DNA from: Nitrospirae bacterium CG2_30_53_67
Lineage (GTDB): Bacteria > CG2-30-53-67
DNA: 6,774 nucleotides
Direction: 5' to 3'
Assembly: GCA_001873285.1 (NCBI GenBank)
Contig: MNYV01000043.1
Coordinates: 1-6,774, forward strand
Shown here piece by piece: positions 70 through 6,774 of this stretch. A model generated the notes under the pieces. That model was not told the origin of the DNA and did not search any database. It saw nothing but the letters and a program-made list of their open reading frames with translations. The position numbers were made by a program, and so were the translations under genes. Position 1 is the stretch's first letter. Every line of letters begins with the position of its first letter.

Positions 70-211
70 GATAGAAAATTGTTTTCCAAGAAAATCCCCC
101 TCCCCTTGTGGGAGGGGGTGTGGGGGAGGGGTAACCTTAAAGGTGAAAACGATTCACCCTCACCCTGCCCTCTCCCATCAAGGGAGAGGGAATAATTTTG
201 GAATTTCTATC
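70..211. repeat. Large palindromic intergenic element, copy A
   Basis: The element is a nested inverted repeat. The outer arms gatagaaa (70-77) and tttctatc (204-211) are exact reverse complements. Inside lie two perfect 9-bp hairpins: 96-104 with 110-118 (loop 105-109), and 168-176 with 182-190 (loop 177-181). The G-rich stretch 119-135 can pair imperfectly with the C-rich stretch 151-167, bringing the two hairpins together in a cloverleaf-like fold. The right half resembles the right half of a second element at 2051-2087, with the shared pattern CCCTCAyCCT then a C-rich/G-rich hairpin. It looks like a dispersed REP-like or MITE-like repeat rather than a terminator, since no T-tract follows. 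It encodes no protein. Confidence 0.75.
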
Positions 212-266: not shown

Positions 267-288
267 ACTTTATATGGTGAATCAAACC

Positions 289-741
289 ATGAAAAAGCAA
301 TTGAAAAAATCGAGGCTTAGAACACCCCTGTTCATCGCTCTATTCCTGTTTGTGTTCCAGACCAATCCGGTCTTCTGTGCCTGCCTCTCCGCTGGTCATC
401 ATGCAACCGGATCTTGTAGTGCCATGTCCGAAAAGAGCCCCTGTCACGGCGATATGCCCATGAAGGCCTGCCATGACAAGGCATCGGACACAAAAAACGG
501 CTCTTCCAACTCCGGCGCTGATACCTGCCCGCTGTGCCAGTGCCTGATGACAGGAAACATCGAGAGTCAGAAGGTCATGGCCGCGATGTCATTGGACCCG
601 GTGCCGGGAAACCTTGCTTGCAACATCTCCCATATGCCCGGCGACACACTCAATGCCGCCAGGCTGACCTGCCTGGTACTGCCGCAGACGCCTGTTCGAA
701 CTCATCCCCTTTTCATTATAAACAGAACTTTCCGCATTTAA
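289..741 (+). CDS. Small secreted Cys/His/Met-rich protein, probable metal binder
   Basis: The 150-residue product has a basic N-terminus (MKKQLKKSRLR), a hydrophobic stretch at about residues 13-29 and an export signal. The mature part contains many soft-metal ligands: ten Cys in all (30, 32, 43, 52, 61, 80, 83, 85, 111, 128), six His and seven internal Met. They include a C-H-x5-K-x-C-H cluster at 52-62 (CHGDMPMKACH) and CPLCQC at 80-85. Residues 28-32 (VFCAC) could be a loose lipobox, giving a lipoprotein anchored at Cys32, or cleavage may follow Ala31. I chose the ATG at 289 because GGTGA lies 7 nt upstream (277-281); an in-frame ATG at 274 and a TTG at 238 have no comparable site, and the TTG is part of a likely -35 box. 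I do not recognise the family. The position upstream of Cu/Ag efflux genes suggests periplasmic copper binding or sensing, by inference only. It is separated by 203 bp from the next gene and probably has its own promoter. Confidence 0.72.
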   Translation: MKKQLKKSRLRTPLFIALFLFVFQTNPVFCACLSAGHHATGSCSAMSEKSPCHGDMPMKACHDKASDTKNGSSNSGADTCPLCQCLMTGNIESQKVMAAMSLDPVPGNLACNISHMPGDTLNAARLTCLVLPQTPVRTHPLFIINRTFRI

Positions 742-944: not shown

Positions 945-1439
945 ATGAAAAGAACCTTTAAACTTTTAAGCGGCTCCGTAGCATTGGTCCTGGCCCTGTC
1001 CGGTTATCTCTTCGCCGGGATGGGCGGCGGAATGATGGGCGGCGGGCAGATGCAGGGAGGGTCCACGGGCATGGATCATCCCGGCCAGGAACCCATGAGC
1101 GGGCATGCCCCATCATCGGGCACCCTGTCTCAGAATACCATGCCTCATCAGGAACAGATGAAGGCTATGGACCAGATGATGCAGGATCCGGCCATGCACA
1201 GCGAGATGATGAACCGGGTCATGGGCAATCAGGAGATGATGAAAGAGATGATGAACCGGATGGTTTTCGAACCGGGCCTTATGAATCAGATGATGGACCA
1301 GATGATGACAAACATGGGGACCCGGAACATGATCGTGGATCGGGTGATGCAGGATACGGAGATGCGGAACCGGATGATACAGGAGGTTCAGTCGCCCAAA
1401 CAGCCGAAGCCGCAGCATCAGCATCCGGCTCAGCCGTAA
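945..1439 (+). CDS. Periplasmic methionine-rich repeat protein, likely Cu(I)/Ag(I) binder
   Basis: The product has 164 residues, of which 31 are Met (about 19 percent), an extreme composition. Residues 1-24 form a signal peptide (MKRTFKLLSGSVALVLALSGYLFA). A Gly/Met segment follows (26-43, containing MGGGMMGGGQM), then a His/Pro/Ser linker (44-70). Residues about 72-148 are a helical repeat region with a period near 15 residues: PAMHSEMMNRVM (82-93), QEMMKEMMNRMV (96-107), GLMNQMMDQMMT (111-122), RNMIVDRVMQDT (127-138), TEMRNRMIQEV (138-148). The common pattern is M-x-x-x-M-M-[ND]-[RQ]-[VM], fading toward the C-terminus. The tail is Pro/Gln/His-rich (HQHPAQP). Thioether clusters are typical ligands for Cu(I) and Ag(I), so a periplasmic copper sponge or chaperone is likely, by inference. 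AGGAGGG gives a clear start. The next gene follows after 39 nt, so the two are probably cotranscribed. I cannot place it in a named family. Confidence 0.85.
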   Translation: MKRTFKLLSGSVALVLALSGYLFAGMGGGMMGGGQMQGGSTGMDHPGQEPMSGHAPSSGTLSQNTMPHQEQMKAMDQMMQDPAMHSEMMNRVMGNQEMMKEMMNRMVFEPGLMNQMMDQMMTNMGTRNMIVDRVMQDTEMRNRMIQEVQSPKQPKPQHQHPAQP

Positions 1440-2209: not shown

Positions 2210-3487
2210 ATGAAAACCTTTTGCCGAACGATCTGTTTTATGTTTTTTTGTTTCCTATGCATCTCCTCGGCTGCATCGGCGGCCGAGGAACTCTTGAATC
2301 TTCAGGCCCTGGTCCAGGAGGCGTTGAAGAATAACCCGGAGCTTCGGCTTGCGGAGTCCAGATGGAAGACCTCGACCTTCAGGGTACCCCAGTCCAGGAG
2401 CCTTCCTGATCCCATGTTTATGCTCGGGTACCAGAATGAGGGGACCCGGAGATACACCTACGGGGAGATGGCGGATTCTGAATGGATGTTCGCCGCATCA
2501 CAGATGTTTCCTTTTCCGGGGAAACTTTCCATCAAGGAGGAGATGGCCGCAAAAGACGCACAAAGCCTCGAAGCCGACTATCAGGCTGTACGGCTGAAGA
2601 CCATCGCCAGGGTCAAAGAGCTCTACTTTGATCTCTTCCTCGCATACCGGAATATCGACATCATCCGGGATAAGACCGCCCTTTTCTCGAGGGTGGAGGA
2701 TGCGGCCGCGGCACGGTACGGATCGGGCATGGCGCCGCAGCAGGAGCTCCTCATGGCCCAGACGGAAAAGTATATGCTCCTCGAAAAGGAAGAGATGCTG
2801 AAGCAGAAAGTGGAATCCATGGAGGCCATGCTCAACAGCGCCACAGGAAGGGAAGCAACTTCGCCTCTGGGGAAGCCCCCGGAACCCGATGAAACCATGT
2901 ATCCCTACAGCATGGATGAACTGATCCAGACAGCGTATGAACATGCTCCGGAGATTAAATCCAGGGAGCTGATGATCGGCTCGGCCGAGGCCGGGATCCA
3001 TTTGGCCGAAAAGGAATACTATCCTGACTTCACCCTCAGTGCAAACCTGTCCAAAAAGGGCGGGGATTTTGAGAACATGGTGGGATTCACCACGACCATC
3101 AACCTTCCTCTCTATTACAAGTCCAAGCAAAGACAGGGTGTCTATGAGGCGAAATCGATCCTGTCCGAGGGAGAGCATGAACTCAAAGACATAAAGCTGA
3201 TGGTCTCGTCCTCGATCCGGGATAACTATTCCATGCTTCAAACAGCGGGCAAACTCATGGAACTCTACAGGAAGGGTCTTATCCCCAAGACCTACCAGGA
3301 TTTCGATGCCGCACTCGCCGGCTACGTAACCGGGAAGGTCGAGGCGATCACGGTGATCAGCCGCCTGAAATCCCTGCTCGACTATGAGCTTTTATACTGG
3401 GAGCAGTTCGTGACCAGGGAAAAGGCCATTGCGAGACTGGAATCACTCACCGGGAGTCCCGGTGATTTCGCATCCACACCCCGATGA
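2210..3487 (+). CDS. cusC: TolC-family outer-membrane efflux channel (CusC/CzcC type)
   Basis: This is the exit duct of a tripartite metal pump, a trimeric barrel and periplasmic tunnel that docks to the adaptor encoded next. From the ATG at 2210 the product has 425 residues. Residues 1-24 are a signal peptide ending in S-A-A-S-A, cleaved before A-E-E-L; there is no lipobox, unlike E. coli CusC, which is a lipoprotein. Two outer-membrane efflux repeats follow (about 28-220 and 235-415). The first opens with LQALVQEALKNNPELRLAES and the LPDPMFMLGYQNEG segment common to metal-type channels. The second has LIQTAYEHAPEIKSRELM and the beta-strand/helix pattern YYPDFTLSANLS. An ATG at 2192 would add six residues (MTQRDP) and is coupled to the small ORF before it; 2210 gives the cleaner signal peptide. 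A 67-nt gap separates it from the adaptor gene, consistent with one operon. Metal specificity comes from the neighbours. Confidence 0.88.
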   Translation: MKTFCRTICFMFFCFLCISSAASAAEELLNLQALVQEALKNNPELRLAESRWKTSTFRVPQSRSLPDPMFMLGYQNEGTRRYTYGEMADSEWMFAASQMFPFPGKLSIKEEMAAKDAQSLEADYQAVRLKTIARVKELYFDLFLAYRNIDIIRDKTALFSRVEDAAAARYGSGMAPQQELLMAQTEKYMLLEKEEMLKQKVESMEAMLNSATGREATSPLGKPPEPDETMYPYSMDELIQTAYEHAPEIKSRELMIGSAEAGIHLAEKEYYPDFTLSANLSKKGGDFENMVGFTTTINLPLYYKSKQRQGVYEAKSILSEGEHELKDIKLMVSSSIRDNYSMLQTAGKLMELYRKGLIPKTYQDFDAALAGYVTGKVEAITVISRLKSLLDYELLYWEQFVTREKAIARLESLTGSPGDFASTPR

Positions 3488-3554: not shown

Positions 3555-4754
3555 ATGAAGACAAGAAGATTCAAGATCATGGTCATGGCCGCACTGGCCT
3601 TTATGCTGTTATCCCTTTCGGGATGGACCTCCGCTCCAAACCAGGCCTCGGCCGGGGAGCCTGCAACCGGTCACGTCGGGCATGGTGGAGCGTTGCCGCC
3701 CGCCCAGACCAAGCCGGCGCCTGATCAGAAGGCTTCGAGACAAGAAGCTCCCGCCGTCGAGATCCCCGCGGACAAGCAGGAGCTCATCGGGTTGAAGACG
3801 GTTGCTGTTTCGGTACAGTCTCTGCAGAAGGTCGTCCGGACGGTCGGGCGCATTGAATACGATGAGAGACGGCTGGCCACGGTCAACACAAAATTTGAAG
3901 GGTGGATCGAAAAACTCTACGTGGACTATACCGGAAGATATGTAAAAAAGGGAGAGCCCATCGCGGAGCTCTACAGCCCCGAGCTTTTCGCCACGGAACA
4001 GGAATTCATCAACCTCCTCAAGTGGTCAAGAGAGGGCAAAGAGACAAGCAGCCCTTTGCTTGCCGGGATGCTCACCGGGGATGCGGAAACCATCCTTGAT
4101 GCAGCGAGACAACGGCTCAGGCTCTGGGATATCAGCGATGCGCAGATCAGGAAGATCGAGGAGACCGGCAAGCCCATGCGTACGCTCACCCTCTACAGCC
4201 CGGTGAACGGCTACGTGGTGCAGAAACCGGCCCTTCAGGGGATGCGGGTCATGCCCGGGGACAAACTCGTGGACATCGCCGACCTGTCCACCCTCTGGGT
4301 CCTTGCGGACATCTATGAGTATGAATTGCCCCTGATCCGGATCGGGGACGCGGCAGCCATCCGTTTGAGTTCTCTACCGGACAAGGTCATCTCCTCAAAG
4401 ATCGATTATATCTATCCTTCGATCTCAGGGGATACAAGAACGGTCAAGGTGAGGTTTGTGATTGACAATCTGGAAGGACGGCTCAAACCGCAGATGTTCA
4501 CGGACGTGGAGATCCATATCGACCTGGGGAAAAGACTCGCCATCCCCGAAGACGCGGTCATCGATACCGGGGCAAGACAGATCGTCTACGTGGATAAAGG
4601 GAATGGCCTCTTTGAACCCCGGGAGGTGACCCTGGGCATCCGGGCCCAAGGCATGGTGGAAGTTTTGAAGGGCCTCACCGCTGGAGAAAAGGTTGCCTCC
4701 TCGGCCAATTTCCTCATCGATTCCGAGGCCAAACTGAAAGGGGTCGTTCAGTAA
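3555..4754 (+). CDS. cusB: Periplasmic adaptor (membrane-fusion protein) of a Cu/Ag RND pump
   Basis: The 399-residue product links the inner-membrane transporter to the outer channel. Residues 1-33 are a signal peptide ending in A-S-A. A Pro/Ala/Gln-rich linker containing GHVGHGG (39-45) follows. Lipoyl half-motifs are seen at about 106-138 (FEGWIEKLYVDYTGRYVKKG) and 212-245 (TLYSPVNGYV... MRVMPGDKL), around a helical hairpin at about 146-205. A beta-barrel follows (about 246-325, with IADLSTLWVLADIYE), then the membrane-proximal domain ending FLIDSEAKLK, characteristic of CusB-type adaptors. No CusB-type N-terminal heavy-metal-binding domain (YxCPMHP) is present, and residues 34-90 contain no Met, so the Met ligands of E. 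coli CusB that receive Cu(I) from CusF are absent. GAAAGGG (3541-3547) sits 7 nt before the ATG. The stop overlaps the start of the transporter gene by one base (TAATG), indicating coupled translation. Confidence 0.92.
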   Translation: MKTRRFKIMVMAALAFMLLSLSGWTSAPNQASAGEPATGHVGHGGALPPAQTKPAPDQKASRQEAPAVEIPADKQELIGLKTVAVSVQSLQKVVRTVGRIEYDERRLATVNTKFEGWIEKLYVDYTGRYVKKGEPIAELYSPELFATEQEFINLLKWSREGKETSSPLLAGMLTGDAETILDAARQRLRLWDISDAQIRKIEETGKPMRTLTLYSPVNGYVVQKPALQGMRVMPGDKLVDIADLSTLWVLADIYEYELPLIRIGDAAAIRLSSLPDKVISSKIDYIYPSISGDTRTVKVRFVIDNLEGRLKPQMFTDVEIHIDLGKRLAIPEDAVIDTGARQIVYVDKGNGLFEPREVTLGIRAQGMVEVLKGLTAGEKVASSANFLIDSEAKLKGVVQ

Positions 4755-6774
4755 TGATCTCCAAAATCATTGGATTCAGCGCGCAGAACAGGTTTGTTGT
4801 CTTCCTGATGGTCCTGTTTCTGGGCATATGGGGTTACTGGGCATTAAAAAACACCCCGCTCGATGCCATCCCGGATCTCAGCGACACCCAGGTCATCATC
4901 TACACGGAATGGCCGGGAAGAAGCCCGGACCTGGTGGAAGACCAGATCACCTACCCCATCACGTCCACACTGCTCGCTGCCCCCAAGGTGCAGGTCGTTC
5001 GAGGCTTCTCCTATCTCGGGAGTTCTTTCATCTACGTGATCTTCGAGGAGGGGACCGACATCTACTGGGCCAGAAGCAGGATCCTTGAATACCTGCAGGC
5101 CGTAAAAGGCAAGATCCCTGCCGATGTCAACCCCGTGCTCGGCCCGGATGCAACCAGTGTGGGATGGGGCTTCTCCTATGCCCTCGTGGATGAGGCCGGC
5201 CGGCACAACCTTGCGGAGCTGCGCTCGATCCAGGACTACAACGTCAAGCTTGCGCTGGAAAGTGTACCCGGCGTCTCCCAGGTCGCGAGCATCGGCGGAT
5301 TTGTGAAACAGTATCAGGTCACCATAGACCCGAACAGGCTCTCGGCATACGGGATTTCCATCATGAAAGTGATGGAGGCCGTCCGCAAAAGCAATAACGA
5401 CGTGGAAGGAAGGGTCCTGGAGTTTTCCGGGATCGAATATATGCTGAGGGGACGGGGGTACATCAAGACTGTTCAGGACCTGAAGGATATCCCTGTCGCG
5501 ACCGACGGCGCGGGCACGCCGGTCTTCCTCAGAGATGTGGCCACGGTACAGCTCGGCCCCGAGATCCGAAGAGGGGTCGCTGACCTGGACGGCAAAGGAG
5601 AAGTAGCCGGAGGGATCGTGGTTGTCCGGTTCGGTGAGAACGTCCTCAGCGTGATCGAGCGGGTCAAGGAGAAGTTCAAAACAGAGATCGCTCCAAGCCT
5701 TCCGGAAGGCGTGCACATGGTGACGACCTATGACCGCTCCGACCTGATCCTCCGGTCCATTGATACACTCAAGGAAGAGATCATCAAGCTCTCCATTGCC
5801 GTGAGCGTGGTCTGCATCATCTTTTTGTTTCACCTCCCGAGCGCCCTGGTCGTGATCCTGACGCTCCCCATCGCCATCCTTATTTCCTTCATCTGCATGC
5901 ACTATCTCGGTGTAACCTCGAACATCATGAGCCTGAGCGGCATCGCCATTGCCGTCGGCGCCATGGTGGACGCCTCAATCATCATGGTGGAGAACGCCCA
6001 CAAAAAGCTGGAGGAGTGGGAGGCTCACGGCGGAGAGGGGAGCAAAGCCGATGTCATCATTGAGGCCGCCAAAGAGGTGGGGCCATCTCTCTTCTTCTCG
6101 CTCCTCGTCATCACGGTCGGTTTTCTCCCGGTGTTCACGCTGCAGGCCCAGGCCGGAAGGCTCTTCAAACCCCTGGCCTACACCAAGACCTTTGCCATGC
6201 TCTTCTCCTCTTTCCTGGCCGTGACCCTGACGCCGGTATTGATGACCCTCTTTATCCGGGGCAAGATCAGACCGGAAGATAAGAATCCTATTATTGTGGT
6301 GCTGGGCAAGATCTATGAGCCGAGGGTCGGATTTTCTCTCAAGTACCCGAAGATAATCATTGTCTTCGCCGTCATCATCATGGCCCTGACCCTCTATCCG
6401 ATCCTCAAGCTCGGGTCCGAATTCATGCCGCCCCTCTATGAAGGGACCCTCTTCTACATGCCGGTGACCGTGCCGGCGGCATCCATCTCCGAGGTCACCA
6501 AGCTCCTTCAAATGCAGGACAGTCTCCTGAAGAAGATTCCGGAAGTAGCGCAGGTCTTCGGCAAGGCAGGACGGGCCGAGACGGCCACGGACCCGGCGCC
6601 GCTGGAGATGTTTGAAACCGTGATCAACCTCAAACCCGAATCCGAATGGAGGCCGGGGATGACGGTCGAGAAACTCAAAGACGAGATGAACGATGTCCTG
6701 ACCATTCCCGGCGTGTCCAATTCCTTCACCATGCCGATCAAGGCGAGAATCGACATGCTTGCGACAGGCATCCG
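4754..6774 (+). CDS. cusA: CusA-type heavy-metal RND transporter, 3' end beyond the window
   Basis: This proton-driven inner-membrane pump exports Cu(I)/Ag(I). About 673 codons are present of roughly 1040 usual, intact without stops or frameshifts. TM1 spans about 14-33, then the porter domain with DAIPDLSDTQVIIYTEWPG (37-55). TM2-TM4 lie at about 345-412, TM5-TM6 at about 446-501 and TM7 at about 533-553, followed by the second porter half. TM4 reads GIAIAVGAMVDASIIMVENA with Asp406 as the proton-relay Asp; this GAMVDA form marks the monovalent Cu/Ag subgroup, as opposed to the divalent CzcA form. By comparison with E. coli CusA recalled from memory, Met569, Met619 and Met668 match the Cu(I)-binding triad (573, 623, 672). 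Relay methionines 392, 404, 411, 482 and 497 match 391, 403, 410, 486 and 501. Position 271 is Ile here where E. coli has Met. The start ATG overlaps the adaptor stop by one base. It cannot be judged whether the C-terminal third is normal or fused to another domain. Confidence 0.93.
   Translation, partial: MISKIIGFSAQNRFVVFLMVLFLGIWGYWALKNTPLDAIPDLSDTQVIIYTEWPGRSPDLVEDQITYPITSTLLAAPKVQVVRGFSYLGSSFIYVIFEEGTDIYWARSRILEYLQAVKGKIPADVNPVLGPDATSVGWGFSYALVDEAGRHNLAELRSIQDYNVKLALESVPGVSQVASIGGFVKQYQVTIDPNRLSAYGISIMKVMEAVRKSNNDVEGRVLEFSGIEYMLRGRGYIKTVQDLKDIPVATDGAGTPVFLRDVATVQLGPEIRRGVADLDGKGEVAGGIVVVRFGENVLSVIERVKEKFKTEIAPSLPEGVHMVTTYDRSDLILRSIDTLKEEIIKLSIAVSVVCIIFLFHLPSALVVILTLPIAILISFICMHYLGVTSNIMSLSGIAIAVGAMVDASIIMVENAHKKLEEWEAHGGEGSKADVIIEAAKEVGPSLFFSLLVITVGFLPVFTLQAQAGRLFKPLAYTKTFAMLFSSFLAVTLTPVLMTLFIRGKIRPEDKNPIIVVLGKIYEPRVGFSLKYPKIIIVFAVIIMALTLYPILKLGSEFMPPLYEGTLFYMPVTVPAASISEVTKLLQMQDSLLKKIPEVAQVFGKAGRAETATDPAPLEMFETVINLKPESEWRPGMTVEKLKDEMNDVLTIPGVSNSFTMPIKARIDMLATGI

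Follow-up and report, generated by a model that had tools for sequence, protein, structure and literature searches.

A few unrelated protein scaffolds are known to serve as Cu(I)/Ag(I) sponges in the periplasm. SilE and PcoE, the classical periplasmic metal sponges (PMC5008109, PMC7558416), have ten conserved His and 10–15 Met residues, with MxxHxxxxxHxxM and HxxMxxxHxxM motifs (PMC5008109). CopM is a periplasmic protein with 23 Met, 8 His, and no Cys, which binds Cu(I) with a KD of ~3e-16 and is the partner of an HME-RND copper pump (PMC4335983). CusF supplies Cu(I) to the CusCBA pump (PMC9302797), and in E. coli CusA the ion is coordinated by M573, M623, M672, and E625, as resolved by cryo-EM (PMC8092243). 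Tris-Met mimics bind Cu(I) with a log beta of ~8, and many weak Met sites have been proposed to form a “Cu sponge” (PMC11840665).

The window analyzed here, the whole 6,774-nucleotide stretch of a contig from Nitrospirae bacterium CG2_30_53_67, encodes a Met-rich repeat protein next to a CusCBA-type pump. We consider it fairly probable that this protein is a Sec-exported periplasmic accessory of the Cu(I)/Ag(I) efflux pump, acting as a buffer or chaperone with exchangeable multi-Met sites. The features of the gene are as follows.

931–936, + strand: AGGAGG ribosome-binding site, 8 bases 5' of the ATG (sequence reading)
945–1439, + strand: Met-rich 14-residue-repeat protein, 164 amino acids, without Cys (open reading frame, dN/dS, composition, and period)
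945–1016, + strand: putative Sec signal peptide, residues 1–24, not of the lipoprotein type, MKRTFKLLSGSVALVLALSGYLFA, with predicted cleavage between LFA and the following GMGGG (sequence)
1017–1073, + strand: Gly/Met segment, residues 25–43, GMGGGMMGGGQMQGGSTGM (sequence; conserved in three homologs, with varying length)
1167–1208, + strand: repeat unit 1, residues 75–88, MDQMMQDPAMHSEM (14-residue period)
1209–1250, + strand: repeat unit 2, residues 89–102, MNRVMGNQEMMKEM (14-residue period)
1251–1292, + strand: repeat unit 3, residues 103–116, MNRMVFEPGLMNQM (14-residue period)
1293–1334, + strand: repeat unit 4, residues 117–130, MDQMMTNMGTRNMI (14-residue period)
1335–1376, + strand: repeat unit 5, residues 131–144, VDRVMQDTEMRNRM (14-residue period)
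1389–1436, + strand: Lys/Pro/Gln/His tail, residues 149–164 (sequence and alignment; no conserved tail in G005)

The open reading frame at 945–1439, with its ribosome-binding site and signal peptide, is a real gene, and Met is the conserved feature of its product, because dN/dS is 0.35 relative to a congeneric homolog with 81% identity (G003) and Met is preferentially retained among homologs: 30/31 Met residues are kept in the 81% identical homolog compared to 103/133 other residues, and 21/31 compared to 46/121 in a 47% identical homolog, where six of the ten replaced Met residues became Leu or Ile. The product contains 31 Met in 164 residues (18.9%), bearing out the estimate of the first-pass annotation that about one residue in five is Met; past residue 24, in the predicted mature chain, the count is 30/140, and within residues 70–148 it is 23/79. 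Relative to a background of 2.5% Met, such enrichment would arise by chance with a probability of ~2e-19. There are six His and no Cys. The FA/GMGGG junction at the predicted cleavage site is invariant across the three homologs, and a Gly/Met segment does precede the repeats, as had been claimed. Of the His/Pro tails also described, the tail at residues 149–164 is present, but it is not a family feature as it is missing from the 47% identical homolog. A His-rich open reading frame on the minus strand (1113–1460) was dismissed as a shadow of the Met codons.

Self-identity within residues 70–148 peaks at a lag of 14 (19 identities vs. 7.8 expected, z 4.8, reached in 0 of 5000 shuffles), whereas a lag of 15 gives a z of only 1.0, and a 15-residue period was therefore rejected. 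The first-pass annotation had proposed five units of roughly 15 residues between residues 82 and 148; the number of units stands, but the period is 14 and the units occupy residues 75–144 without gaps. Its literal motif, M-x-x-x-M-M-[ND]-[RQ]-[VM], is found only twice (residues 84 and 98). Instead, units begin with [MV]-[DN]-[RQ]-[MV]-[MV]-x-[DNE], and position 14 is hydrophobic and mostly Met. The five-unit array is also present in the G005 homolog. Met occupies unit positions 1, 4, 5, and 14, and Met pairs at i+4 are enriched in the repeat region. The suggestion that Met lines one face is supported by this register, as the same four positions are hydrophobic in a related scaffold described below. 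An AlphaFold2 model of the core built from three sequences predicts helices at window residues 68–80, 82–94, 96–107, and 110–149 with low confidence (pLDDT 71, pTM 0.28), and Foldseek and VIA-align searches with this low-confidence model as query returned zero matches.

The Met-rich protein matched no family in Pfam, NCBIfam, PADLOC, or the PDB, so the statement that it belongs to no named family held in these profile checks, and nothing was found in Rfam. Weak NCBIfam, PDB, and plasmid matches (RNase HII, SYK, scFv linkers, and GNAT) were attributed to composition or chance. Among 84,980 species genomes scanned, two orthologs were recovered, one in a Hainich groundwater MAG (L008) and one in the MAG Dive96_bin10.193 (L009), both from the same small phylum as the window genome. 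Whole-genome searches placed the gene in three of the eight genomes of this phylum (G000, G003, and G005). Plasmids, phages, and viral contigs yielded no relatives, a search in which the BLAST low-complexity mask may hide some.

The genes surrounding the Met-rich gene point to a copper or silver efflux locus.

286–741, + strand: Cys-rich exported protein (CPLCQC), an accessory found repeatedly in Cus loci across the phylum (with homologs next to CusC in G001, G004, and G005)
1479–1871, + strand: YtkA-like protein with an MPAMPGMPAM motif (PF13115, E 8.5e-18)
2210–3487, + strand: CusC-type outer-membrane factor (PF02321, E 1e-38)
3555–4754, + strand: CusB-type periplasmic adaptor (PF16576, E 1.4e-79)
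4754–6774, + strand: heavy-metal RND pump of the CusA type, truncated where the contig ends (TIGR00914 above cutoff; CusA triad)

The gene order in the window is thus Cys-rich, Met-rich, YtkA-like, CusC, CusB, and CusA, and the Met-rich protein is encoded with a CusCBA pump whose CusA, when aligned with that of E. coli, is identical at the M573, M623, and M672 triad and at E625. G003 repeats this order with a c-type cytochrome inserted ahead of the Met-rich gene. In G005, the order is Met-rich, outer-membrane-like, YHS/TRASH-like, a second Cys-rich gene, CusC, and CusB, where the contig ends within the CusB frame; the remainder of CusB lies on another contig, together with CusA and a cytochrome that has a YHS-like segment. 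The G005 locus is probably continuous because the two contigs have a 141-base end in common (the start of L006 and the end of L015 overlap inside cusB). All three copies of the Met-rich gene therefore lie in Cus-type (CusCBA) efflux loci, and the binomial probability of such linkage in two lineages under random placement is ~4e-5, taking a target of ~16 kb per genome and the two genera as independent.

Since the gene adjoins a CusCBA-type pump in three of three genomes and the window CusA keeps the triad, the best explanation is that the protein probably buffers or chaperones Cu(I)/Ag(I) on behalf of the pump. The sequence, its repeat and conservation, the gene neighborhood, and the pump type are established directly, whereas metal binding, fold, location, and handover are inferred. 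Context alone makes the copper role likely. The first-pass annotation had proposed a multi-site Cu(I)/Ag(I) sponge or store; the copper or silver role is favored by the Cus loci and the triad, but a pump-linked buffer or chaperone fits this context better than storage. The protein is an optional accessory of Cus loci because five of the eight phylum genomes have Cus-type pumps without it; the loci examined in G001, G004, G006, and G007 contained no Met-rich counterpart. Because no CusF-family gene was detected among the window open reading frames tested with Pfam and NCBIfam models, the place of CusF might be taken by the Met-rich protein or by the YtkA-like one.

Several other features recur around these pumps. 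A c-type cytochrome containing a segment rich in His and Met is found in Cus loci of the phylum (L005:4065–4613, L015:747–1526, L014, L016, and L023), preceded in some genomes by a YHS/TRASH-like segment; the window lacks the cytochrome that G003 has between its Cys-rich and Met-rich genes. The small exported Cys-rich protein accompanies CusC in several genomes (window 286–741, L006:1734–2192, L014:7576–8097, and L016:14302–14793) and is possibly another metal-binding accessory; the window copy carries a CPLCxC motif, and the protein has no curated family, its similarity to DUF2946 being weak (E 0.81). In G005, the Cys-rich and Met-rich genes are separated by one for a 152-residue protein with no family match (L009:5331–5789). 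Similar-looking intergenic sequences of the CCCTCACCC / GGGAGAGGG type flank the gene cluster (window 95–200 and 2000–2095) and, together with CCTGAGCTTGTCGAAGG at ~1898, resemble dispersed repeats of bacterial genomes.

The claim that the protein has no relatives proved wrong at the level of the scaffold, as the same 14-residue repeat is carried by lipoproteins without copper neighbors. At a threshold of E ≤ 0.01, a profile of the repeat core matched 11 of the 47 genomes belonging to the phylum of G332 (~0.5 expected by chance), and the matched proteins are mostly lipoproteins of ~120 residues with a 14-residue period and 6–15% Met (L032, L041–L049, and L063, with L066 also listed among them). 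Weak matches outside this phylum and that of the window genome, in six genomes at the same threshold with ~4 expected, were set aside (L033–L038). In the reverse direction, the lipoprotein profile recovered the Met-rich open reading frames of G000 (E 1.5e-8), G003 (1.8e-6), and G005 (7.4e-10) from 386 genomes, and the only two other matches outside the G332 phylum were one lipoprotein and one false positive, an OmpA-like protein in G268 with VEKP repeats of equal period (E 4.6e-7). Because periodic sequence inflates E-values, as in the G268 case, a control was made in which the order inside the 14-residue unit was scrambled identically across units, keeping period and composition; the 41 and 52 bits obtained with the real sequences were above every one of the 3000 controls, whose maxima were 32 and 28. 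The hhalign comparison of the Met-rich repeat with the lipoproteins gave 96.6%. The Met-rich protein has both the period and the unit motif order of the lipoproteins but not their lipobox Cys, as none of the three Met-rich proteins contains any Cys. Common descent is likely from these comparisons, and the two-way profile link of the Met-rich repeat to uncurated small lipoproteins of another phylum appears to be new here.

The lipoproteins have D/N-P capped repeats and two recurring neighborhoods (amidase/DegP-type and gyrAB). In the sampled and partly annotated neighborhoods, the recognizable neighbors are gyrase, an amidase, a DegP-type protease, and ABC-F, and no copper genes were recognized near the lipoproteins, so that the scaffold as such is no indication of copper. 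Thirteen of the 19 conserved Met columns coincide with hydrophobic columns of this scaffold (Fisher p = 2e-5), and Met fills 70% of those hydrophobic columns in the Met-rich proteins vs. 29% in the lipoproteins. At the remaining six Met columns (84, 93, 99, 113, 124, and 129), the scaffold has mostly non-hydrophobic residues. The Met-rich protein thus appears to be the scaffold with its hydrophobic face turned to thioethers, plus some additions.

Met could nonetheless be partly a hydrophobic filler, and this is the basis of the strongest rival explanation, in which the protein is a structural or organizing helical repeat with Met as flexible hydrophobic filler, for example a GerD-like rope that clusters pump or envelope proteins and binds metal only incidentally. 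Its strength derives from the scaffold occurring outside copper loci and from the lipoprotein L045, which has 20 Met among 101 residues (~20%) of its repeat region in a locus without recognized copper genes. Because scaffold proteins such as L045 reach this level outside copper loci, Met enrichment alone is no proof of metal, and the 13 Met columns noted above may simply be hydrophobic columns. GerD forms a trimeric superhelical rope (PMC11841064), and it is the best Pfam/NCBIfam match of the lipoproteins (E ~2e-4), which have no curated family. The resemblance is faint and only a lead: PF17898 was matched by four of nine members (best E 2.4e-4), and the lipoprotein profile matched PDB 4o8w at E 0.005 with unrelated coiled-coil matches close behind, but neither the three Met-rich proteins nor their profile matched GerD. 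The higher Met share of the hydrophobic columns, the six Met columns outside them, and the placement of all copies in Cus loci also argue against a purely structural role, which we regard as improbable.

A sacrificial sink for oxidants, as proposed for proteins like MrpX/BcrX, in which surface Met is oxidized and then recycled by MsrP/MsrQ, would account for the high Met content and periplasmic export, both as in MrpX/BcrX (PMC8315932), and copper stress does oxidize periplasmic Met, with MsrP maintaining CusF (PMC9302797). However, MrpX/BcrX consist of MXKDX repeats encoded in msrPQ operons, whereas a search for MXKDX found none in the window protein or G003 and one isolated match in G005, and the Met-rich protein has neither an NCBIfam match nor an adjoining msr gene. 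The Oxidored_molyb domain of MsrP (PF00174) is likewise absent from G005 and from the window genome (95% complete), and Met lies on the hydrophobic face rather than being scattered, making this sink quite unlikely. A cofactor donor, namely a periplasmic Cu(I) carrier feeding cuproenzyme or cytochrome oxidase assembly, is suggested by the adjoining YtkA/FixH-like gene and the c-type cytochrome of G003, but the same loci carry the full CusCBA exporter with Cys-rich accessories and the window has no oxidase or cuproenzyme gene, which leaves it the least probable alternative.

As a pump-linked buffer or chaperone, the five units would fold into short helices that, according to the low-confidence prediction, are interrupted near D/N/E-P turns, and the face that is L/I/V in the lipoproteins would present mostly Met at i, i+3, and i+4. 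This face could hold several soft ions in interchangeable two- or three-thioether sites, and the Gly/Met segment may contribute flexible ligands. Sites of this kind would have moderate affinity for Cu(I) or Ag(I) and fast exchange, so the protein could take up metal in the periplasm and deliver it to the CusB/CusA Met relay, the task that CusF, SilE/PcoE, or CopM performs in other systems. A more specific scenario, which we offer tentatively and consider somewhat doubtful, is that the L/I/V face was swapped for Met in one branch of an undescribed repeat family, giving a helical array of almost nothing but thioethers, free of Cys and poor in His, that would carry several Cu(I)/Ag(I) ions and supply the Cus pump instead of CusF.

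Among the known systems, SilE/PcoE are also small, exported, Met-rich proteins linked to Cus/Sil-type pumps, with repeated ligand motifs and a helix content that is expected here too. They differ in that His is scarce in the Met-rich protein and the 14-residue repeat is different; neither SilE/PcoE motif was matched in the three homologs. CopM, a duplicated DUF305 protein, is likewise periplasmic, with many Met, some His, and no Cys, and is paired with an HME-RND pump, but its architecture is not that of the repeat, and DUF305 was not matched at E ≤ 1 in the window or homologs. CusF is encoded with CusCBA as well, but its fold is a beta barrel instead of the expected helical repeat, and its family model was unmatched by the Met-rich protein. 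GerD is an exported protein whose successive helices are DP-capped, reached via the weakly similar lipoproteins only; its DP spacing is 13, not 14, in the aligned segment, and it functions in spore germination. MrpX/BcrX are periplasmic Met-rich repeat peptides too, but their pentapeptide repeats and msrPQ operon have no counterpart here, with neither msrP nor msrQ in the window. The lipoproteins agree with the Met-rich protein in repeat length and register and in two-way profile matches, and differ in being a mostly lipid-anchored class with an L/I/V face, without the Gly/Met segment or recognized copper neighbors. The job of buffering and handover is thus known from other proteins, while no named family shows this repeat architecture. 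Because each position of the presumed metal face can be compared with its counterpart in a same-repeat scaffold with no sign of a copper role, the comparison allows a direct test of how the hydrophobic face of a helix turns into an array of thioethers for metal, and of whether a high Met content signifies metal binding or just flexible hydrophobic packing.
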